Below are positions 5,352-30,995 of a DNA stretch of 36,874 bases, one piece after another. The notes below the pieces were generated by a model, which worked only from the letters and a program-made list of their open reading frames with translations, did no database searches and was not told where the DNA came from. The stretch spans positions 1 through 36,874 of the IMG/VR virus record IMGVR_UViG_3300030329_001356. The stretch is one strand, 5' to 3'. Positions within the stretch are counted from its first letter, which is position 1. Every line of letters begins with the position of its first letter. Source of the DNA: a virus. Made by a program: the position numbers and the translations under genes.

Positions 5352-6230
5352 TTAGCTGTTGTTAGTAACTGGGTCACCAATTTCGTAACGAGAAGCAGCA
5401 CCCTTGGTGTCATCAACCTCAAAGACTGCATAGTCTTCAGTTACAACAACTTCAAAGGCACGAAGCGAAGCATCTCGCTCACGCTCTTCTGAGCGACCAC
5501 TTGCGGACAAGTGACCCATAGCGGATCGGTCAGCAATAACACCGTAGCCTGAATCGGTTGTGCCGATCTTGGCAATGTTTCCATCCTCAAAGAACGGAAC
5601 ACCTGAAAGCTTGACTCCAGAGTAATAGTCTTTTACTGCTGGCTTGTTGAAAGCATCAGGCAGCGGGTAAGTTGCCAGAGTGTTTCCAATGTCAGTTGCA
5701 AGGTTCCAGATTGCATTAGGGTGGTGAACTACAAAGAGGTCACTTCCAAACTTACCTGACTTTGCATTTGCAATAATTGCAGAAGCATTTGCCAAGTTTA
5801 GGTTTTTATCATCAGCACCAAAAGCAGTTCCGCCATTCAAAGAAGGGAACAGAGCAATGATGTCTGTGTCCTTCTTACGAGCCATAGCGTCACCCATCTG
5901 GCGACCAATGATTTTGTAAACGTCTTCGTTGTTCTGGCGAAGAAGAGTGTCAGTAATAATTACTTTCAATCCAACTTCAGCAGTTGTTGCCGTAACAGTT
6001 GAGACATCAATGTCCTCACTGTCGATCATGTCCTGACCTTCTACAAGGTCTTCGGCATCCATCTGGGCAACTTTTGGAATCTCCAGCTTGTACTCGCCTT
6101 TACCTAGTTTGAACTTTTCAACAAGGTCAACCAAGGGGGCGTTATGCTCTTCTGTGTATCGTGCCTGTGCAAGCATGATACGAGACATATTTTGGAGATT
6201 GCCAGTTGTACTTGTTTGTACGCTAGCCAT
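5352..6230 (-). CDS. Major capsid protein (HK97-fold type)
   Basis: A 292-residue protein directly downstream of the scaffold-like gene. The order, length and alternation of alpha and beta segments suit an HK97-fold coat protein. Visible features include an N-terminal helical arm, a long spine-like helix (V-Y-K-I-I-G-R-Q-M-G-D-A-M-A-R-K-K-D-T-D), and a V-V-H-P-N-A-I-W-type segment typical of coat P-domains. The C-terminal strand (Y-A-V-F-E-V-D-D) and motif S-R-Y-E-I-G-D-P follow. The ribosome-binding site GAGGTAAATAAAG precedes ATG 6230. No protease gene is adjacent, so the coat is probably not extensively processed. Assignment is by context and fold pattern. Confidence 0.75.
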   Translation of the reverse strand: MASVQTSTTGNLQNMSRIMLAQARYTEEHNAPLVDLVEKFKLGKGEYKLEIPKVAQMDAEDLVEGQDMIDSEDIDVSTVTATTAEVGLKVIITDTLLRQNNEDVYKIIGRQMGDAMARKKDTDIIALFPSLNGGTAFGADDKNLNLANASAIIANAKSGKFGSDLFVVHHPNAIWNLATDIGNTLATYPLPDAFNKPAVKDYYSGVKLSGVPFFEDGNIAKIGTTDSGYGVIADRSAMGHLSASGRSEERERDASLRAFEVVVTEDYAVFEVDDTKGAASRYEIGDPVTNNS

Positions 6231-7158: not shown

Positions 7159-10100
7159 TTATTGAGCAAGTTCTCCAGCAGGCTGCTTAATAATAGGCTT
7201 GCCATATATAGATAAAGGCGGAGGCTGTGGCTGCCCTTTATAAGATTGCGGTTCACCCGGACCATAATTGCCTCTAGCGGCAGAGGCATAGTCTTTGGAA
7301 GAATAGCCTGCTTCGTTTTGGATTACATTCCAAATTGCATTATTGAGATACCCATATCTCAAACTAACTTCTTTCCCATTTTTATCAATGCGTTTTGTAA
7401 AAGGAAGGTCTAAAATTTCTTGAACACCCGGAACCTCAGCATATCTTTCGCGCCATGTTTTCAAATCAGCCGCCAGTTGCGGTGACAGATTCTTTATAAA
7501 AGCTTCTTGCGCTGATTCCAAACCGGGGACTTTTGCGCCTGTACGGTCATTGTATTCATCCCACTGAAGTCCTCCGGCAGGTTTTTCATACTTTTCGTAC
7601 AGGTCGTACCAAGCGTTTAACATTCGGTCAAAATCATTAGTTGGTTCTTTTCCAACATAATTGTTTATGCCGTTGTTTTTTCGGTACTCCTTCATTGATA
7701 TGTATTGTTCATCTTCAGCATCTCTTACTGCTGTTCTAAGGTTACTTAGTATCGAATAAACACCATTAAAATGTCCACGAGTACCGTTTTCTCGTATCGT
7801 ATGAACTTGTTCAGGATCAAGCATGTTTTTTACGAACTCATCTAATGCTGTTTTTGTTCTTCTTTGAGTGTCATTTCTTGCAGCATTATTAGTAACAATG
7901 TAGGCAGCATATGCGTTGCCACGTTTAGCTGATAACAAATCATATTCATACAACTGTTCAGCTACATCAGAACTTGTTTTTAGTTGATGACGCTCTAGCA
8001 TATTTAGTTCAGCATACGGCTTGCCAAAAAATTCATTTGCTTTTTCGTCAAATAATTGCGGCTTACCTGCTTCGTAAGCCCTACCTCCAATAAACTCAAC
8101 ACCCCCCACTTTGAGTTTTGTTTCAACACTAGACGAACCAAGAGCAGCTTCTTGCATCCAAATAAACATTGTTTTCTTGGCAAGGTATTTACCAAGATTT
8201 GGCAGCCATTCACCTGCTGAAAGCCACCCGCCTTGGTCTTGACCTAGCTGTTTCCTTGCCCAAGGAGCAACAGGGTCGCCTTCAAAAGTTCTACCTTGTA
8301 CGCCAGTAAAAACATCTTGACCTAGGAATGAAGTTTGACCACGCACCCATCTTCCAATGTCAGTCAGGTGCTGCTCTGAAGACCTGTTAGGGTCTAGCAT
8401 TTTTGCCATAAACCGAATATCAGAAAGAGTTTTGCCCCCAAAGCCTAATACCGCATCACCCGCTTGGACTACAAAATATTTACTACTGCCCGGAGTCAAA
8501 GACTCTTGTAAATCTTTATCCCACTTTTTTCCTTCAGATTTATTTTTGGCAATTAACAATGCAGCAAATGTTAGGTGTAGACCGACAAAGCCTGAAATAA
8601 GACTTTGGCGAGCAACATCCCCCCTAACGCCACCTTGCATGGCATTTTTGTACAGGTTTAGAACAGCCTTTCTGTAACGAGGAGCAAGCAAAACCATGCT
8701 TTCCCACCATCGTTGTTGTGGTGAAATTCCAAGGCGGGCACTAGATGACAATCCCCGTAGACTATTAATCGTATCTTCTACATCTTGTAATTTTTTTGGA
8801 TCAAAAGACCCGTCTGCTTTTTTTGCAAGAGGGCTAAAGGCATCCCATAAATGAAGGGCTGCCATATTCTGCGTTGCCCCAAACGCTTCTGCGGCAGCGT
8901 CTGCAAAACGCCTAACGGGGAATGTCAGCGTTTTTGCAATAGGGGCTATTGCGCGACCTATAACTGGAATGCTTCTTGCAGTGCCTTCTAGCCAGTTACT
9001 TATTTGTTCTACTTTGCCAACACCTTCAAGGATTTCAGTACGATCCCCCGGCATCTGGAACATGATAACTCTACTGCCTGCAAGCTTATTTCTTGCATCA
9101 TCTATTGTCGCAGCAGACATACGCCGAACTCTCTCAGGGCTGCCTAGTCCAATTACAAAATCTTTTGCAAATTGCTTACCAGTCTTCATTCCTAACATAC
9201 CCGGAATAGAAACTCTTCCTTTATAAACTGGATAGTAGAGGTCCCGCATAATTGCAAAAAGAAGTTGAATCGTAAATAAGCTAGCATCTCCTGCTAATTC
9301 GTAAGACCGACCAAGTTGTATGTAGCCTTGAGCGGCTCGTGCCAGTGCCGATTCAGGGGCTTTTTTCAGGTGAGCAGCTTGTGCTTTTTTGAAGTCATCA
9401 GCTAATGCTCTGGCATCCTGAGAAGTTCCAACAACGCCTCTGAATAACTCGTGTTGTTTTTCCTCAAAACTTCTTTTAGAAGCTGGAATCTTTTTAAATT
9501 CATAATTGTCAAAAACGTATTTAGAAACTGACTCTTCAGCAGCTAATCTGTACACCGCAGCGATTTTTAGTTTTACCGTCTCATCGTATGGAATAAGAAT
9601 AAAACCTTCAGCCTCAGCTTCCCTAGCTGTTTCATAAACTCTAGCTTCTTCAAGTTGTCCTTTTACAAAGCCACTAGGAAAATCCCCGGAATCAAATGCA
9701 ATTTGTGTAACATTGCCTTCTGAATCTAATTTTCCATAGACTTTTCTTGAAGCAAATAAAACTTTATCTTCTGGAGAAAACCCTACTTCTGCTCCATAAG
9801 AACGAGCAAAACTAGACCCAGCTTCATCTAATTCAGCCAAACGAGTTACATAATCTAATGCTGTAAACGGTTGTCCTGTTTCACTATTTATTTCTTTAAG
9901 TTTTATTTCTTCAAGCAGTCTTATTACGTCAGGGTCGGCTCTGTTTTCAACAATGTCGTTTAGGCTTCGCCCAGCAAATGGTCCTTCAGTAAACTTGAAC
10001 TGTTCGTCTACTGGTCCGAAGATAGATTCTCTAGTCCCCAGCCTACTAATGTAAGTATAAGCACGATCTGCTTTTACTCTTCCCTCTTCCATTAAGTTTG

Positions 10101-13100
10101 CAAGAACAATTACAAGTCGTTTGCCGATTGAAGATTCAGGGGCTGCCAAACTAGGGTCAAAGTATTTTGAAATAGGACTGAGGGCTTCACCAATTTTTCG
10201 GAAAAGATTGTCAGCAAAAGCTACGTTGTACTGAATTTCAGTGTCCTGAAGAGACTCTAAGAACGGTCTGTTTTTGCCATTGCCTATAGGCGTACTAAAT
10301 GCACCTTCTGCTACGGGAGGCTTTGGAATAATAGGAGGCAAATCTCCTGCAACATCAGGGGTTAGTTCAGCAGACTTCGCAACATCTACGGTGTTATCTA
10401 CAGGGTCGGCTAGCTTGCTTTCCCAAAAGAAGTCTCCTTGTGCTTGCCTCACTACATTAGGAGTAAGACGTTTTCTTTCTGCTGCACTATATGCTCTGCC
10501 CGCAACTTCTATTCCACGCTGCTGCTGATCGCCAACTAGCCCCATTGGTAGTTGTCTAGCTGGAGTGGTTGGTGGATCAACAAGGGCAGTACGTCCTTTC
10601 CATGCTTCTTCTGTACCCCGTATTGCTGTTGCCACTTCATCTAACGACGCATCTGTGGTGTCTACGACCAATTTCACAGGAATTGAGTTAGCACCTAATT
10701 TCTGCATAGCAGCGATACGATGTGCGCCCTCGATAACGACTGGCTCACCATTTTTACCAACCCCAATAATGACAGGGTCAATATGGTTGCTTTCACGAAT
10801 CGCTTTAGCTAACTCATCTACCTGCTCAATGTCAGAACGAGTTACAAATCCCCCTTCATCACCCCATGGACGCAAGTCCATTTCTCTAATACCCGGAACT
10901 TCTTCAAAGGAGGAGTATGTAGAACTTACAGAATCGAAATTATCAACTTTAGTGCTTGTTGTTCTCCCGTCTACGGTATCTCCCACAAGAGGGTAGAACT
11001 CATCAAGCGTACCCTCAACTCCCCCAGCCCCCCTAGCAGCAGCGTCTGCCTGTCCCGCAACTTTAGACCTGCCCAGCATTCTGTTTTTTACAGCGGGAGA
11101 ATATTCTCCAAGAATAAGATTCCGGTATATGCGCTCTGCTTCGTCTCCCTTTCCGTTGCGAATTAGTAAGTTGTACGCAGCAATAGCAAGCTGCTTTACT
11201 ACATCCATAACTTTCGCGAAAGCCATTCTTTCTGCGTTAGAGTTTAGGCTTTTTTCAAAAGTATCTCTTACAACCTTGTCTGCTATTACTTCCGCAAAGT
11301 ATTCAGGAAAACTTTCATACCGATACTCTCGTGGGTTTGTAACAAATCCTTTTCTTGTAAGAACTATCCTACGCCCACTTAAATCTTTTATTTTTTCTAG
11401 CCTAAGATTTCGTTTGTAAACCTTCTCCAGTACCGCCAAATCTTTTTTGGGAACAAACTGCATTAGGTGGTGAGCCACTTCGTGCGGAATAACCCGTAAT
11501 TGATGTTCAAAGTTTGATGACTTTAAGATATTGACTGGAATATTTAGAAGAGCATTACCGGAGTCATACCAGCCTGTAACCCTGCCTGAAACAATCGGAG
11601 AGCCAACGCTTGTTGTGCCAGCAGGGTAGCCTGCAAGTATTCTTGGGTCATCAAGAAATAACTTAAAGAATGATGTTCCAAGTGTCTTCAGTAGTTCATC
11701 TGGAAGAGAGCGCACAAAAGCATCTGCTGTGCTTCCAACTTCTGGATCAAGCTTTCCTTTAGAAACTTCAAGTCTTATTCGATCAATAAAAGTACGCTTA
11801 CCACGAGAAATTTTTCCAAGGTCGGTGCTGGTATGAGCATCCTCTATATCAAGAAAAGCTTTGTTTGAATCTATTTGTTCTTGACGAAGACTAACTACTT
11901 CAGAAAGTTCAGCAATAAGATCATCGGTTTCTTTTAGTTCGGGAGACTCCCTTAAAACCACCCGCTGATCGGCACTAAGTTCATTCCAAGACTTTCCAAA
12001 AGAAGATTGAGCAAATTCTTCTTGCTGTTGCGTTTGTTCTTGTATTAGCTTACGTAGGTTTTCAGCCTCAAGACCCTGTTGGCGCGAACCTTCAATCATA
12101 TTGATGTTCAAGCGACCCACTAACGGGGAGTTATTTGAAACAGGAATAATCTCTCCGTTAGACCCAATTACTCCACGCCTTGTGCCGCCCGCTCTTGTTT
12201 CGTACCGAATACTGGTTCCCGCTGGAGCTATGTGGTGGAAAGTTTGCCTTGACTGAACGGAACTAGGGGCTATTCGGGGATCATCTATTGGTACAGAAAT
12301 TCCTCTTGCAAGTTCGATCTGCCCTTCATTTACACCCTTAAGCTGTCTTCGTTCTGCTGCGGGGACTGGCTTGTCATCACCTATTGCTCTAAGGTCTAAG
12401 CCTTCCATTTCAGATGCGGTCTTTTGCATCTGCCTTACAATAGGATTGGCTGCTCTTGTTACTGCTGGAGCAGTTACTTTACGAACCTTTGAAATAACAG
12501 GTCTACCTATAGCCTGACCAGCTCTGGCGATCTGGCTTAATTCATCACCAGCCAAATCTAATCCTAGCGTTGACTTCAATCCGGGTGCACCCTGTATTGG
12601 ACGACCTGCGGCTCTCAGCCCTGCAAGTTCATCTGCTTGCCTTAATACACTTGCAGGATTTTTAGGAGTCATCCCTAAGAACGACCCACCTAAAGTACCC
12701 CACTTTTCAAATTGTGCAGGATCACCTATTCCGGTTGCCTCGGAGATTTTTCTTGCACCCTGTCCAACAATAAGTCCTCCTAAAAGTTCACCCATCCCAA
12801 ACGCTGTCGTAAGGGGAAGACCGGGGAAAATCTGTAAAAGAACAGCAGTGTTTGAGCCACCTCTAATTGCTTGCTCTCCTCTTGTTTGTCCTGTCGTTGG
12901 ACTGACATCGAATGCAGATTGCAAACGTATTCTTGCCTTTTCTACTTGTTCTTCAACAGTTCTGCCGGGGATAGTAGTATCATGTCCTATCGACTCAAGC
13001 TGCTTTTTTACTATATAAAGATCCTGCTCTGCCTGTGGGCGAGGATTACCCTTATAGTCTGTTCTGAGATCATCTCCTGTTTCTTCAACCTGTTTATATA

Positions 13101-13605
13101 TCTCTTCTGCTGTGGGAAGTCCTTGTGGTCCTTTTTGCAGGTTTTCAATCGCATTGAAAGTCTCGCCAGTCAAAGGGTCGCGCACCTCCCCCGGAGTCCC
13201 GACAACAGATTGAGAGGTTCCTGATACCCACCTTCCGAATGCACCCGTGCCTCTGCCTACTTCTCTTGCAACAGGTCCAATATATCGTCCTATTGTCTGC
13301 CCTATGAGATTCGTGCTTCTGGGAGGAGCCGGGGGCTGAACATCTACAGCCTGTGTAGGCTGCGCTACTTGCGGTCGGGCAGAAGGCGCAGAAGGCGCAG
13401 GGGGCGCACCGTAGATGTTGCGAAGTCTAGAGTCAGCTTGTAAAGCTTCTATCCCGCCCGGAATAGAACGCAATTTTCTAAGGGCGATTTGACCGTTGCT
13501 ACCGCCCTGCTTTACCTGTGCTAATAATTTAGCTATTTCATTTTGCGGAGATTGGTAAAGACTTTGCTGCCCTCTTGAAACAAAATCTGTAAAAGATTGA
13601 GTCAT
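7159..13605 (-). CDS. Giant polyvalent-type virion protein with zincin-like and ParB-like segments
   Basis: At 2148 residues this is the largest gene. The N-terminal 170 residues are proline-rich and disordered, and a hydrophobic glycine-rich stretch lies around 250-290. Near residue 708 is a zinc-protease motif, H-E-V-A-H-H, followed about 50 residues later by E-S-F-P-E-Y-F-A-E-V-I-A-D, the usual second half of such sites. Residues about 905-985 form a ParB-like domain (D-E-L-A-K-A-I, then G-E-P-V-V-I-E-G-A-H-R-I-A-A-M). Beyond residue 1150 come long helical regions and another hydrophobic stretch (G-L-H-L-T-F-A-A-L-L-I-A). Multi-domain proteins of this kind are known as phage polyvalent proteins, thought to be injected with the DNA and to disarm host defences. 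It overlaps the upstream gene as TAATG. Its place before the scaffold fits an internal, ejected virion protein. Confidence 0.7.
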   Translation of the reverse strand: MTQSFTDFVSRGQQSLYQSPQNEIAKLLAQVKQGGSNGQIALRKLRSIPGGIEALQADSRLRNIYGAPPAPSAPSARPQVAQPTQAVDVQPPAPPRSTNLIGQTIGRYIGPVAREVGRGTGAFGRWVSGTSQSVVGTPGEVRDPLTGETFNAIENLQKGPQGLPTAEEIYKQVEETGDDLRTDYKGNPRPQAEQDLYIVKKQLESIGHDTTIPGRTVEEQVEKARIRLQSAFDVSPTTGQTRGEQAIRGGSNTAVLLQIFPGLPLTTAFGMGELLGGLIVGQGARKISEATGIGDPAQFEKWGTLGGSFLGMTPKNPASVLRQADELAGLRAAGRPIQGAPGLKSTLGLDLAGDELSQIARAGQAIGRPVISKVRKVTAPAVTRAANPIVRQMQKTASEMEGLDLRAIGDDKPVPAAERRQLKGVNEGQIELARGISVPIDDPRIAPSSVQSRQTFHHIAPAGTSIRYETRAGGTRRGVIGSNGEIIPVSNNSPLVGRLNINMIEGSRQQGLEAENLRKLIQEQTQQQEEFAQSSFGKSWNELSADQRVVLRESPELKETDDLIAELSEVVSLRQEQIDSNKAFLDIEDAHTSTDLGKISRGKRTFIDRIRLEVSKGKLDPEVGSTADAFVRSLPDELLKTLGTSFFKLFLDDPRILAGYPAGTTSVGSPIVSGRVTGWYDSGNALLNIPVNILKSSNFEHQLRVIPHEVAHHLMQFVPKKDLAVLEKVYKRNLRLEKIKDLSGRRIVLTRKGFVTNPREYRYESFPEYFAEVIADKVVRDTFEKSLNSNAERMAFAKVMDVVKQLAIAAYNLLIRNGKGDEAERIYRNLILGEYSPAVKNRMLGRSKVAGQADAAARGAGGVEGTLDEFYPLVGDTVDGRTTSTKVDNFDSVSSTYSSFEEVPGIREMDLRPWGDEGGFVTRSDIEQVDELAKAIRESNHIDPVIIGVGKNGEPVVIEGAHRIAAMQKLGANSIPVKLVVDTTDASLDEVATAIRGTEEAWKGRTALVDPPTTPARQLPMGLVGDQQQRGIEVAGRAYSAAERKRLTPNVVRQAQGDFFWESKLADPVDNTVDVAKSAELTPDVAGDLPPIIPKPPVAEGAFSTPIGNGKNRPFLESLQDTEIQYNVAFADNLFRKIGEALSPISKYFDPSLAAPESSIGKRLVIVLANLMEEGRVKADRAYTYISRLGTRESIFGPVDEQFKFTEGPFAGRSLNDIVENRADPDVIRLLEEIKLKEINSETGQPFTALDYVTRLAELDEAGSSFARSYGAEVGFSPEDKVLFASRKVYGKLDSEGNVTQIAFDSGDFPSGFVKGQLEEARVYETAREAEAEGFILIPYDETVKLKIAAVYRLAAEESVSKYVFDNYEFKKIPASKRSFEEKQHELFRGVVGTSQDARALADDFKKAQAAHLKKAPESALARAAQGYIQLGRSYELAGDASLFTIQLLFAIMRDLYYPVYKGRVSIPGMLGMKTGKQFAKDFVIGLGSPERVRRMSAATIDDARNKLAGSRVIMFQMPGDRTEILEGVGKVEQISNWLEGTARSIPVIGRAIAPIAKTLTFPVRRFADAAAEAFGATQNMAALHLWDAFSPLAKKADGSFDPKKLQDVEDTINSLRGLSSSARLGISPQQRWWESMVLLAPRYRKAVLNLYKNAMQGGVRGDVARQSLISGFVGLHLTFAALLIAKNKSEGKKWDKDLQESLTPGSSKYFVVQAGDAVLGFGGKTLSDIRFMAKMLDPNRSSEQHLTDIGRWVRGQTSFLGQDVFTGVQGRTFEGDPVAPWARKQLGQDQGGWLSAGEWLPNLGKYLAKKTMFIWMQEAALGSSSVETKLKVGGVEFIGGRAYEAGKPQLFDEKANEFFGKPYAELNMLERHQLKTSSDVAEQLYEYDLLSAKRGNAYAAYIVTNNAARNDTQRRTKTALDEFVKNMLDPEQVHTIRENGTRGHFNGVYSILSNLRTAVRDAEDEQYISMKEYRKNNGINNYVGKEPTNDFDRMLNAWYDLYEKYEKPAGGLQWDEYNDRTGAKVPGLESAQEAFIKNLSPQLAADLKTWRERYAEVPGVQEILDLPFTKRIDKNGKEVSLRYGYLNNAIWNVIQNEAGYSSKDYASAARGNYGPGEPQSYKGQPQPPPLSIYGKPIIKQPAGELAQ

Positions 13606-17098: not shown

Positions 17099-18475
17099 TT
17101 ACCACCTATTTACCGTAATAATCTTCGTTGCACCTGCTGCTCGCGCATATCCAAAGTTTACAACTAATCCGTAGGTTACTGCTTTGACGCTGTGATTGAA
17201 AGCGTCTCTAGGCTGCCTTCCGATTACATTATTGTCTTTGTCTGTGCGCCACGTATAGACATGAATCTGGTCATCAAACGGGTTAGCACAGCCCCCTAAT
17301 TCGGAGATCAAGCCCCTAGCTTTGTGGTTGATTATAAGATTTGGTTGTTTTGTTGAGGGGTTTTCTTTCAGGAACGTGTTGAATCTTTCGATACCGTCCA
17401 TAATGCCGACACGTTCTGACTGCATATACAGTTGAGCCTTCTCAAGCCAAGTATCAACAGGTCTTGATTCGCCCATATTGTGCGCTGCGATGTCGATTAC
17501 TCCCTGTTGAACGTCCTTCCACCACGGGCGCATCTGGCATATCTCAATAATTTCCTCTGTGATCTTTTCTCTTTCGTAGATTTCGTCAATAATTCTGACC
17601 TGACTGCCGATAATCTGTACTGCTACTACCGCATATGCTGATTTTGTGACCTGAGAATAGCCGGGGTCAACCCAAAGATGGACGGGTTCTTCTTCGATGT
17701 ACTCTGCTTTGTCTGATACGTGGGTTGATATATCGAACATGTTGTGGACAAGCCCTTTTGGTGGGGCAGGTTTACCAGCAACACGTTCATTGAACCAGTC
17801 TTCGGAGTGTAATCGTTCTAGTGACAGGATTTCTTCGTCTTCTCTGCCGTTAGGGTAGACAACATTGTTGGTCCAAGAGGGCAATGAGAAAGATATAGCG
17901 TCATCGTCGGGGTTATAAAACTGCCAAGACTCCCATTGGGACGGATACCAACCCAACGACATCTCAAATGTTCCCTCTAGGAACAAATACCCACGTTTTT
18001 CTGCAATTCTGCCCCTCAATCGCAGGAAACTTTCGTAGTCAATCTGTGATGCTTCGCAGGCAACTACCATTCTTGGTGCTTCCATGGCGAGACTTCTGTG
18101 ATCTTGGGCAGATTTAGTCTTGATCGTAAAAACGCCGGGCTTTTCGCTAGTACCACACGCCACAGACATCTCTCCGGGGTCAATGCGTTTGGTCTGCTTT
18201 ATCAAAAACCCCAACTTAGTCAGGATTTCCGACAAATAGTTCCACTCAGCACGAGTTCTCTCGTAATCCCTAGCAACCAACCAACATATATCACCACTCT
18301 CAAACTCATCCAAGCGGTTGATAATCGACAATGCGCCCAAGAAACTCTTACCAGCACGTTCTCCACCAGCTACCAGCTTTATTCGAGCCTTGTGGTCAAG
18401 TATCTCGTCCTGCTCTACCCACGTTTCATAGCCCGCTGCTGACAATAACGCCTTGCGATCCTCAGATAACAACAT
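17099..18475 (-). CDS. terL: Terminase large subunit (packaging ATPase/nuclease)
   Basis: A 458-residue protein. The Walker A motif is G-G-E-R-A-G-K-S (37-44). A Walker B-like strand, M-V-V-A-C-E-A (136-142), supplies the catalytic Glu141. The C-terminal RNase H-type nuclease domain shows V-D-P-G-Y-S with Asp270, then R-I-I-D-E-I-Y (Asp297), V-I-D-I-A (Asp328) and a final F-D-D-Q-I-H-V-Y near residue 414. It is the first gene of the leftward late unit and directly precedes the portal. The small subunit is not adjacent; it lies far along the same unit (32182-32664). Upstream is a four-copy 9-bp repeat. Confidence 0.92.
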   Translation of the reverse strand: MLLSEDRKALLSAAGYETWVEQDEILDHKARIKLVAGGERAGKSFLGALSIINRLDEFESGDICWLVARDYERTRAEWNYLSEILTKLGFLIKQTKRIDPGEMSVACGTSEKPGVFTIKTKSAQDHRSLAMEAPRMVVACEASQIDYESFLRLRGRIAEKRGYLFLEGTFEMSLGWYPSQWESWQFYNPDDDAISFSLPSWTNNVVYPNGREDEEILSLERLHSEDWFNERVAGKPAPPKGLVHNMFDISTHVSDKAEYIEEEPVHLWVDPGYSQVTKSAYAVVAVQIIGSQVRIIDEIYEREKITEEIIEICQMRPWWKDVQQGVIDIAAHNMGESRPVDTWLEKAQLYMQSERVGIMDGIERFNTFLKENPSTKQPNLIINHKARGLISELGGCANPFDDQIHVYTWRTDKDNNVIGRQPRDAFNHSVKAVTYGLVVNFGYARAAGATKIITVNRW

Positions 18476-18515
18476 GTCGTAGAAACTCCTAGTCGCTACG
18501 CTACCTCTCTCGGTC

Positions 18516-18550
18516 GTAACATCGGTAACATCGGTAACATCCGTAACATT
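18516..18550. repeat. Four tandem 9-bp repeats (GTAACATCG type)
   Basis: GTAACAT occurs at 18516, 18525, 18534 and 18543 with an exact 9-bp period, about 40 bp upstream of the large-terminase start codon. The core GTAAC is the same as in the CGTTACA/TGTAACG cluster 400 bp away. It could be a binding array for the same protein, placed in the late leader. Confidence 0.8.
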
Positions 18551-18600
18551 CAGTTCAGATTGCTGGGCAAGCTCGGCTTTTTACCCCCCCAAATTACAAA

Positions 18601-18636
18601 CTTCCCGTGTAGCAATTGGAGGAACTACACAGGAAG
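18601..18636. other. Inverted repeat / hairpin
   Basis: A 12-base arm (18601-18612) pairs with 18625-18636 with one mismatch across a 12-base loop. A second small hairpin (CATCT-AAA-AGATG) follows at 18650-18662. On the minus strand these would lie in the leader of the late message. There is no clear T-tract, so a terminator call is not supported. Confidence 0.5.
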
Positions 18637-18932
18637 CCTGAAAAGCTGCCATCTAAAAGATGCTAGCCGTACCAACTAAACACCTGCATGGAAACCTGAC
18701 GAGGAAACCGAGTAGAGAAAGCACCCCGGATACGCCAGCAACAACAGCTTCCACAAAGTATAACCAATTACAAATTTACAAATCCATCCGCAACTGCTCT
18801 CGCAAATAACCACAACCCACTTCACGCAACGCTCGCAAATGACAAACCCAACAAAATACACCAGTAGAACTCTTACGATCACAAAGACAATGACACTGAC
18901 AATACATATAAAACACCCTACCAATACCTAGA

Positions 18933-18977
18933 CGTTACACATACCCCCTCTCCCCTTAAGGGGAGGGGTGTGTAACG
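18933..18977. repeat. Large palindrome with CCCCTTAAGGGG core and CGTTACA/TGTAACG flanks
   Basis: The outer arms are CGTTACACA and TGTGTAACG, and the centre is CTCCCCTTAAGGGGAG. The arms match apart from a few extra bases in the left arm. A second palindrome with the same core and the same outer 7-mers lies at 26341-26366 (arms extending left to 26328), over the stop codon of the primase gene. The shared design points to a common binding protein or common structural role. Confidence 0.8.
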
Positions 18978-18984
18978 GCAGTAG

Positions 18985-19100
18985 CGTTACATATACCGTT
19001 ACATAACCGTTACACCCGTTACAGGTAACCAAATCCTAGTTCAACTTACCCACTTCAAAGTGTAACGGCAACGTAACAGCACCAAAAAATACAGTAACGG
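18985..19100. repeat. Iteron-like cluster of CGTTACA / TGTAACG
   Basis: CGTTACA occurs at 18985, 18997, 19008 and 19017, and TGTAACG at 19061. Close variants GGTAACC (19024), CGTAACA (19072) and AGTAACG (19093) are also present. Together with the two copies flanking the adjacent palindrome, this makes about ten related sites in 170 bp. Several are spaced 9-12 bp apart, about one helical turn. This is the usual look of an initiator-binding array at a replication origin. Confidence 0.75.
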
Positions 19101-19179
19101 GACTCCACAATGGCGATTCTACAACAACAGGGTAGGCAACTTTTGCAATTTCAAACCGTCAGAGGGGTACCTAACATCG

Positions 19180-19262
19180 CACCCAGCACAACCCCAACAG
19201 CACACCCCCCTCCCAGCCAGCGCCACACCACCCCACACACACCGCCCCACCCCCCACACAGC
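19180..19262. other. C/A-rich tract (G-rich on the minus strand, quadruplex-capable)
   Basis: About 80 bases contain very few T or G. The minus strand therefore has several runs of 3-6 G separated by short spacers, which meets the simple pattern for a G-quadruplex. It sits between the iteron-like cluster and the TTGTGAA array. Strand-biased tracts at origins can aid strand opening; that role is inferred here. Confidence 0.5.
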
Positions 19263-19279
19263 GGGCAAAATGTTGGACT

Positions 19280-19500
19280 TTGTGAAACGATTCACAATAT
19301 GCCATAGAACCAACGTTCTGCGAGAGATGAGCGGGCTTGTGAAACAATTCACGATCTACCGAATGGACATTGTGAAATAAATCACGATAGGCGATCTAAC
19401 ATTGTGAAAAGTTTCACGATATAGGCAGAAATACGCCTTTTGCAAAGTGCCCAAAATGTGGAATATATGCCCCAAAATAGACTTGTGAAGTATTTCACAG
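19280..19500. promoter_or_regulatory. Five-copy operator-like palindrome array TTGTGAA-N4-TTCAC(A/G)(A/G)
   Basis: Copies start at 19280, 19337, 19370, 19402 and 19483, each 18 bp long. The first is a perfect palindrome (TTGTGAA acga TTCACAA); the others differ at one to three positions, mainly in the right arm. Spacing between copies is 57, 33, 32 and 81 bp. Dyad-symmetric sites of constant length in a divergent control region are the mark of a dimeric repressor or activator, or of an initiator protein. A small helix-turn-helix protein encoded at 26722-26928 is one possible partner. Confidence 0.75.
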
Positions 19501-19852
19501 ATGAGCGGACACATGCGCGCGCGAAGGATTTGTGACCATAAACACCTTTTCACGCTCCAGCGTCTCTCTGCGCTTATCTGTGGCGTAGTAGCACCTACTC
19601 ACGAGAGAGGCGAGGATTTTAGGGCAAAATGCACAGCCCGTACAGGTAGTGTGAATGTGCTTTACTACCACTACCACTTCTGTACGCTCTGTGTGTGATT
19701 TAGGTATAGACTTGTTAACTTAGGGCAATGTTCAAAATTGCTCGAAAAACTACCCGTTACCGTGTAGAAATACTTGCTACTACTATTGGGAAGTGGTACG
19801 GTTTAACCACAACTTAATAGAGATTCTTTAGTAACAGTCGATCTCATAGCAC

Positions 19853-19887
19853 GGATCAATCGTTCACTCGATAGGCTGGATCAATCG
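19853..19887. repeat. 10-bp direct repeat GGATCAATCG
   Basis: Exact copies at 19853-19862 and 19878-19887, 25 bp apart, upstream of the first early gene. Purpose unknown. Confidence 0.55.
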
Positions 19888-20074
19888 CTCTAGAGATGAC
19901 ACCAGACAACCCGAGAGACAACGGCATATTGCAGAGTGTTACAGCTACCTTTTCAGCGGTCATCCTGATTAAATGCAACGGTTTCGCCCACAATCAAAAA
20001 GGGCAAAAATACATATCGCAATCACACAAGATCGCAAACAATAGCGAGAATACGAGAATCAATAGCATCTAATG

Positions 20075-20106
20075 AATAGGGGCAAGCTTCACGGCTTGCC
20101 TCTATT
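20075..20106 (+). other. Stable hairpin in the leader of the early message
   Basis: A 13-bp stem (20075-20087 with 20094-20106, one G-T pair) closes a 6-base loop, about 50 bases before the first early start codon. There is no T-tract after it, so it is more likely a leader RNA structure than a terminator. It could stabilise the early message or mark its 5' end. Confidence 0.6.
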
Positions 20107-20130
20107 AGTGAGGGGTTATTTACTCTCAAC

Positions 20131-20159
20131 AACTAGCAGAAATACGAGAATCAATCATG
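20131..20159 (+). repeat. 29-bp start-site leader, copy 1
   Basis: The sequence AACTAGCAG-AAATAC-GAGAATCAATC-ATG is identical at 20131-20159 and 20451-20479, ending in the start codons of the first two early genes. Shorter forms (AACTAGCAG and/or GAGAATCAA) precede most genes up to 26457. Confidence 0.9.
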
Positions 20160-26721: not shown

Positions 26722-26928
26722 ATGAACAACACAGTATCAATGACATCCATGATTGCCACACTGAGAACCCAGTTGTCGGCAAAAGAATTAGCAAACGCTG
26801 TCAACACACCGAGTGCTGAATTAGTCAGGCGGTGGGGTCGTGGTGAAGCACAGCCTGTTGCTAAATACCAAGACAAGATCAAAGAACTTTATGAACTCTT
26901 TATCAAAGAGTTTGGAGAGGACAGCTAA
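26722..26928 (+). CDS. Small helix-turn-helix protein
   Basis: A 68-residue protein started at ATG 26722 after AAGGAG; the longer frame from 26647 overlaps the previous gene. S-A-K-E-L-A-N-A-V-N-T-P-S-A-E-L-V-R-R-W-G-R-G (about 19-41) reads as a helix-turn-helix of the Cro/XRE-like type, followed by a charged helix. It may be the phage's small regulator and a candidate binder of the TTGTGAA array, but no direct evidence links them. Confidence 0.6.
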   Translation: MNNTVSMTSMIATLRTQLSAKELANAVNTPSAELVRRWGRGEAQPVAKYQDKIKELYELFIKEFGEDS

Positions 26929-30080: not shown

Positions 30081-30995
30081 CTACAAATTAGTAACCCGCT
30101 TCCACCACCGCACAGCCTTCATGCCACCACGTTGGAGTGCCCTCACCACTAACCCTATCTTTTTGCCTATCTTTCGGGCAAGCCGTAAGACCTTTGATTT
30201 TATTGACCTGTATAGCCTGATGATTAGCCTGTATATCTTTTGAACCATCGGCAAGTCGGCAAAGTAATTACCCTCACGGTCAGTTAGCCACCCTGCTATT
30301 AGACCCATCTCGTAAAGTATCAGGATAGGTAGGGCAACAAGGAACGTGAGTGTCCCGTCTAGTGACGGTGTGATAAGAGCAGCAAAGATAAACGCTGTCG
30401 GAACAATCCACTTGCGTAGTGTCCTAGCTTTTGAGTACGGGACAAATCTGAACTTAGCCAGTAGCTGCATCACTATAGGCAACTCGAACACTATCCCTAT
30501 CCAGAACAAGAGGCTCAACAGTAGAGCCATGTACTCTGTAAGCAGGATTACAGGGACAGCTATGCCACTACCAAAGTTCAGAAGGAAGTGGAGTGACACT
30601 GGCATCATCACCCAGAAAACAAATGATGCACCCAGCGCGAACATCGCTATAGATATTGCTGAATAGGTTGTTACGAATAGCCAAAACCGCCGTGGCACAA
30701 ACGGCTTCAGCATACTAAGCACTCCCACTAGAAGAACTGGGAACGCCACGAACTGCCCGCCCTTCATAGACAGGCTCAGGGTGGAGCCGAACATATCTTG
30801 GGGTGCTGTGAAAGTAGGCTTCCCCTCAAAGGGGGACAGCATCTCTTCTGCGGGGGCAAGCAGGAAAGCGAACACCTCTGGATGCCACCAGAAGGTAGCC
30901 CCTGCCCCAATACTCCATGCCAATATGCACAGGAATACGGTGTTCCTGAACCGCTGACCGAACCTGAACCCCCGCTCGTAAGCGGAGAGGCTCAT
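30081..30995 (-). CDS. tatC: TatC-like twin-arginine translocase subunit with basic tail
   Basis: A 304-residue membrane protein whose first 240 residues follow the six-helix TatC plan. The landmarks are L-L-A-P-A-E-E (45-51), K-G-G-Q-F-V-A-F-P (78-86), W-I-G-I-V-F-E-L-P-I-V (165-175, conserved Glu171), T-P-S-L-D-G (209-214, conserved Asp213) and A-L-P-I-L-I-L-Y-E-M-G (221-231). TatC binds twin-arginine signal peptides and, with TatA/B, exports folded proteins. The site corresponding to the conserved Glu after P-G/A-L reads K-P-F-V-P-R-R here, without that Glu. The N-terminal H-L-x-E-L-R motif is also poor. The last 60 residues are an unusual, strongly basic, probably soluble tail. It is a late gene directly after several one-helix peptides. 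Phage-encoded TatC is rare; its role in infection is unknown. Confidence 0.82.
   Translation of the reverse strand: MSLSAYERGFRFGQRFRNTVFLCILAWSIGAGATFWWHPEVFAFLLAPAEEMLSPFEGKPTFTAPQDMFGSTLSLSMKGGQFVAFPVLLVGVLSMLKPFVPRRFWLFVTTYSAISIAMFALGASFVFWVMMPVSLHFLLNFGSGIAVPVILLTEYMALLLSLLFWIGIVFELPIVMQLLAKFRFVPYSKARTLRKWIVPTAFIFAALITPSLDGTLTFLVALPILILYEMGLIAGWLTDREGNYFADLPMVQKIYRLIIRLYRSIKSKVLRLARKIGKKIGLVVRALQRGGMKAVRWWKRVTNL

Follow-up and report, generated by a model that had tools for sequence, protein, structure and literature searches.

Predicted host Rex operators and a LexA-box-like site in the early/late control region of a marine-type phage

Rex is a bacterial repressor that senses NADH/NAD+, and LexA is a repressor that responds to DNA damage. 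Co-option of host regulators by phages is already known for CtrA, LexA and Spo0A. Phages rich in CtrA sites have been described under the term lytic deferment (Mascolo et al., 2022; PMC9437464), and the same source mentions that host Spo0A binds several promoters of phi29 and suspends its development, and that LexA is read by several phages. In the temperate phage GIL01, which has one canonical LexA box, a half-site and the co-repressor gp7, host LexA acts on promoter P1 (PMC4551915). The Rex operators described in Gram-positive bacteria are promoter sites on the host chromosome, with the consensus TTGTGAANNNNTTCACAA in S. avermitilis (PMC5355995) and TTGTGAAW4TTCACAA in S. aureus (PMC2883068). 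Rex sites in phages did not come up in the literature searched, which counts as weak evidence given the incomplete coverage of the searches.

The window analyzed here (the whole 36,874 bp of the viral contig IMGVR_UViG_3300030329_001356, from a marine-type phage) contains the same 18-bp palindrome, TTGTGAA-N4-TTCACAA, strictly at one site and with 1-2 mismatches at the others; in contrast to the chromosomal promoter sites of PMC5355995 and PMC2883068, five of them lie in a row in a phage. In our view, these five palindromes are probably operators for host Rex. They lie in the control region that separates the leftward late genes from the rightward early genes, and a single putative LexA box stands in their midst. 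Like Spo0A on phi29, as mentioned in PMC9437464, the regulator would reflect the state of the host, although Spo0A is a sporulation regulator and recognizes another site. The array also differs from that of the CtrA phages (PMC9437464) in its predicted regulator, Rex (redox) together with LexA. With GIL01 (PMC4551915) the locus shares a putative host LexA box of Gram-positive type in a phage control region, whereas in the window this box is mixed with Rex-like sites and no lysogeny genes were recognized.

The palindromes and their surroundings

The sequence-only reading had reported five 18-bp palindromes at 19280-19500, between the early and late units, and all five are present (Table 1). The near-equal spacings that it noted are likewise borne out, with start-to-start distances of 57, 33, 32 and 81 bp. 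The motif as it was given, TTGTGAA-N4-TTCAC(A/G)(A/G), describes the row except for site 3 (TTGTGAAATAAATCACGA), which ends in ATCACGA and does not fit the inner base of TTCAC. The left half TTGTGAA is invariant in 5/5 sites and the variation is confined to the right half (TCACAA, TCACGA, TCACAG). Hits with at most 1 mismatch averaged 0.0 per sequence in a set of 60 first-order Markov copies of the window, and 3 hits with at most 3 mismatches within 221 bp occurred in 0/60 copies. Between sites 1 and 2 lies a palindrome of another kind, AGAACCAACGTTCT, the only GAAC-N4-GTTC in the window, which had been missed in the earlier reading.

Table 1. Features of the window, in order of position; mismatches of sites 1-5 are counted against TTGTGAA-N4-TTCACAA.
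Feature	Position	Strand	Sequence	Remarks
Major capsid	5352-6230	leftward		leftward unit (packaging and capsid genes)
2,148-aa protein	7159-13605	(-)		late unit; ParB-like nuclease domain
TerL	17099-18475	leftward		late unit
Early/late control region	18476-20156			~1.7 kb, largely non-coding, between the leftward late and rightward early units
CGTTACA/TGTAACG cluster	18933-19100
Rex-operator-like palindrome 1	19280-19297		TTGTGAAACGATTCACAA	exact consensus, 0 mismatches
LexA-box-like palindrome	19305-19322		ATAGAACCAACGTTCTGC	core GAAC-N4-GTTC at 19307-19318
Rex-operator-like palindrome 2	19337-19354		TTGTGAAACAATTCACGA	1 mismatch
Rex-operator-like palindrome 3	19370-19387		TTGTGAAATAAATCACGA	2 mismatches
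Rex-operator-like palindrome 4	19402-19419		TTGTGAAAAGTTTCACGA	1 mismatch
Promoter-like sequence	19462-19489	(-)	TTCACA-16-TATATT	toward terminase/late genes; -35 inside site 5
Rex-operator-like palindrome 5	19483-19500		TTGTGAAGTATTTCACAG	1 mismatch; holds possible -35 of leftward promoter
Early unit	from 20157	rightward		DUF7178, ArdC-like protein, Prim-Pol primase-helicase, PD-(D/E)XK exonuclease
Xre-like helix-turn-helix protein	26722-26928			reads as one domain
TatC homologue	30081-30995	(-)		twin-arginine translocase; Pfam PF00902, E 2.7e-34

The promoter-like sequence that overlaps site 5 was the one match in the region, against 2.7 expected from shuffles, and because one match is no more than chance predicts, the promoter step of our reading is weak. 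The spacing TTCACA-16-TATAT is legible also in the related contigs L016, L022 and L015.

No close relative of the phage was found in the isolate collection. Its TerL has distant matches only to Actinobacteria phages (45 records, ~28% identity), its capsid protein has distant matches to Pelagibacter phages, and a search of genomes with TerL returned no prophage or host relative. The TatC homologue has only distant matches among phages and plasmids, and its similarities, taken as a clue, gave no host. The late unit also encodes a very long protein with a ParB-like nuclease domain (Table 1). The CGTTACA/TGTAACG cluster in the same control region occupies the same place in relatives down to ~88% TerL identity and is absent from relatives below that value.

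Likeness to Rex and LexA sites in bacteria

The statement of the sequence-only reading that the motif matched no site it knew was mistaken, as TTGTGAA-N4-TTCACAA is the published Rex operator (PMC5355995, PMC2883068). The window sites are 18-bp palindromes with few mismatches to that operator, the consensus being one from Streptomyces and Staphylococcus.

Bacterial sites of the same kind were followed in Acidimicrobiia genomes of ~1 Mb, which, from their size and an actinobacterial-type rhodopsin, we take to be marine and Actinomarina-like. Each genome has 2-5 copies of TTGTGA-N6-TCACAA, while counts of the reversed pattern are mostly 0, and one Rex-like site lies ~1.5 kb from rex in 6/6 genomes. 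In the one case inspected, this site near rex presumably stands just upstream of nuoA; other inspected sites lie at whiB and in the gap between rhodopsin and photolyase genes that diverge from each other, the gene names being our reading of the sequence. Thus, in all six genomes the palindrome marks targets in the rex/nuo neighbourhood. Rex is encoded in 9/9 tested Acidimicrobiia genomes; a cNMP-binding protein (PF00027) was found in 0/6 of those with the sites, and in those genomes the palindrome is therefore not a CRP site. The Rex-like palindromes between rhodopsin and photolyase genes (L285 at 1783 and 1824, L290 at 1791, both marine Acidimicrobiia) suggest that light-related genes may be under redox control in these bacteria.

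The second palindrome is assigned from recA promoters. Either TAGAACATTTGTTCTA or TAGAACATATGTTCTA stands directly upstream of recA in eight inspected Acidimicrobiia loci, and LexA is encoded in 7/7 tested genomes. Palindromes of this GAAC-N4-GTTC type also match the B. subtilis LexA core CGAAC-N4-GTTCG, as quoted in PMC4551915. Read in this way, the GAAC-N4-GTTC at 19307-19318 is of the Gram-positive/actinobacterial LexA-box type.

Distribution among related and unrelated viruses

Related TerL proteins were found at 53 loci in IMG/VR, and further loci were reached via the primase and DUF7178. Five sites occur at the same place in two groups of contigs with TerL 94-96% identical to that of the window (L016-L018/L001; L019/L020/L022). 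In L016 and L022 the site spacings of 30-34 and 77-81 are kept, while most of the spacer sequence has diverged. In L015, with a TerL 99% identical, the three right-hand sites are kept and GAAC-N4-GTTC palindromes replace Rex-like sites 1 and 2. Some relatives have the inner bases ATCAC, not TTCAC. The motif is thus conserved in only part of the close relatives, with five, five or three sites at the same place at TerL identities of at least 94%, but 0-2 sites or different repeats in others at 91-95%. Among the relatives, L021 and L024 have 1-2 Rex-like sites plus GAAC palindromes, L048 and L049 have GAAC palindromes only, and L025 and L029-L033 have neither. These inventories indicate that the place is kept while the kind of operator changes, and the lack of Rex-like sites in L025 and L029-L033 indicates that their function is not essential to this type of phage.

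L029-L033 carry repeats of other kinds in that place. In L029, L031 and L033, ~650-770 bases from the TerL start, about six ATnCATG repeats with a 14-bp period replace the Rex/LexA row, alongside two TGCAA-N4-TCGCA dyads. TTCGCG repeats are present in L035-L038.

Across IMG/VR, a tandem pair of TTGTGA-N6-TCAC was found in 87 stretches, against 8 for a scrambled palindrome pair, and a tandem GAAC pair in 66 stretches. The mixed pair of a LexA-like site and TGTGA-N6-TCACA occurred in 40 viral stretches and its scrambled control in none; bacterial and archaeal genomes totalling 257 Gb gave 5 such pairs, all of them isolated. Within the set of Rex-like (TTGTGA-N6-TCAC) arrays, AGAAC-N4-GTTCT was the only other non-trivial palindrome to stand out. 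Some 20 contigs contain between 3 and 9 sites that differ from the Rex consensus at no more than 2 positions. The largest mixed array, in L108, has about ten Rex-like sites (9 within the Rex-consensus count) interleaved with five LexA-like ones, and L067 and L132 are similar. Exchange of site types is seen here as well, since L067 has mixed sites and L156 and L170, with a terminase region 95% identical, have LexA-like sites only. The arrays are placed at control regions, in the window and, ahead of terminase operons, in several groups, their spacing is conserved, and the same palindromes recur in phages with unrelated terminases. As in phages that co-opt host regulators, the sites are concentrated in the control region and appear to have arisen independently in several lineages. 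A search for a protein common to the array phages gave terminase, portal and other genes within related groups as the largest shared clusters, and no regulator.

We give an even chance to the wider reading that arrays of operators for host Rex and LexA were assembled independently in several unrelated, largely aquatic phage lineages, with close relatives freely exchanging site types. Such phages would set the early/late switch by reading both the NADH/NAD+ balance and the DNA damage of the host, which would amount to a redox-gated lytic programme.

Candidate binders and a possible switch

The data fit the first suggestion, an operator with several sites for a dimeric regulator between the early and late units, except that the site is not of an unknown kind. 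The binders first suggested, the small helix-turn-helix protein and the primase, gain no support, as homologues are present in L003, L004 and L038, all of which are without the sites. Homologues of the small protein occur both with and without the palindromes, with a differing recognition helix, and the primase is ~60% identical in relatives lacking them. No Rex gene was found in 43 viral records (0/43) and no LexA DNA-binding domain in 35 (0/35), many of these records being fragments. As the array phages examined yielded neither gene, a host protein is the most likely binder, and the simplest candidates would be host Rex and, for the single GAAC palindrome, host LexA. Two further phage-encoded candidates were rejected: the window has no LexA/S24 regulator (an S24 peptidase was found in 1/48 viral records) and no CRP (all matches in 48 viral records were below the cut-off).

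We had initially taken the sites for CRP-family sites of the host, through which the phage would sense cAMP or a similar signal and not redox. The TGTGA-N6-TCACA core is identical; sites 1 and 5 contain it without a mismatch, sites 2-4 each depart from it by one base, and another group of phages (L220, L236, L240, L225) has TGTGA-N6-TCACA adjoining LexA boxes with few or no Rex-like flanks. This core does not separate CRP from Rex, but the Rex-specific flank bases (T1, A7, T12, A18) match in 18/20 cells across the window sites. CRP was downgraded because the Acidimicrobiia with these sites, where the palindrome adjoins rex/nuo, lack any cNMP-binding protein, and we now regard it as unlikely. 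Operators for a repressor or activator encoded by the phage, such as the Xre-like protein, would make the switching of site types a matter of heteroimmunity. Consistent with this, the recognition helix is altered in relatives that carry other repeats (SAELVRR versus SSEQVRR), and site types swap at 99% TerL identity (L015). However, this covariation rests on only two lineages, unrelated phages with the same palindromes share no such protein in the stretches compared, and both palindromes are standard sites of host regulators, which leaves this explanation a slim chance, on the order of one in ten.

Palindromic iterons are bound by lambda O, and a row of palindromes spaced at close to three helical turns, within extended non-coding DNA beside the CGTTACA cluster, would suit a replication origin recognized by an initiator of the primase/helicase module. 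Against this, the primase is conserved in relatives that lack the sites, and the motif is that of known host operators and recurs, with LexA boxes, in phages with unrelated terminases; we find an origin very improbable. The sites could also act as a decoy that titrates host Rex and LexA off host promoters and controls no phage gene, a use suggested by L108, where one array combines as many as 9 Rex-like with 5 LexA-like sites, a density of mixed sites not seen in the 257 Gb of cellular genomes. The conserved spacing of the arrays, their location at control regions (ahead of terminase operons in several groups) and the overlap of site 5 with the promoter-like sequence argue against a pure decoy, which we consider improbable, if slightly less so than a phage-encoded regulator. 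RNA hairpins with a 7-bp stem and a 4-nt loop were considered as well, since U-G pairing would survive the A-to-G changes of the window sites; they were rejected because the inner bases of TGTGA-N6-TCACA are mismatched in relatives.

For operators of host Rex and LexA, the likely role is a redox- and SOS-gated early/late switch, suggesting that the virus may time gene expression according to the energy state of its host cell. In an oxidized cell, with high NAD+, dimers of host Rex would sit on the five sites and repress a promoter of the region, possibly the leftward late promoter with its -35 inside site 5. Rex on NAD+ would then cover this -35, sites 1-4 would add more obstacles downstream of it, and a rise in NADH would release Rex and allow the unit to be expressed. 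LexA would add an input from DNA damage, and the presence of several sites may give a sharp switch or titrate the host repressor.

If this reading is right, phage development takes a signal from the NADH/NAD+ sensor of the host, and the outcome of infection is linked to respiration, oxygen and light in the water column. The array signature offers a way to find other such phages by sequence, and the exchange of Rex and LexA sites among near-identical phages would offer a means of studying how phages change the host signal to which they listen.

Further palindromes were noted in the viral stretches compared. A third type, like AGTTAGT-N4-ACTAACT, lies among the Rex-like sites of the low-GC phages L083, L091, L101 and L121. 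Contigs L220, L225, L236, L238, L240 and L252, with terminases 46% identical to those of Streptomyces phages, have CRP-like TGTGA-N6-TCACA sites and LexA boxes, and the Streptomyces phages FlowerPower (L254) and Percastrophe (L255) have two CRP-like sites each in their first 370 bp, ahead of the terminase. Two stretches hit by the scrambled control (L312, L313) contain perfectly symmetric TTGAGT-N6-ACTC tandem palindromes, perhaps another operator array.
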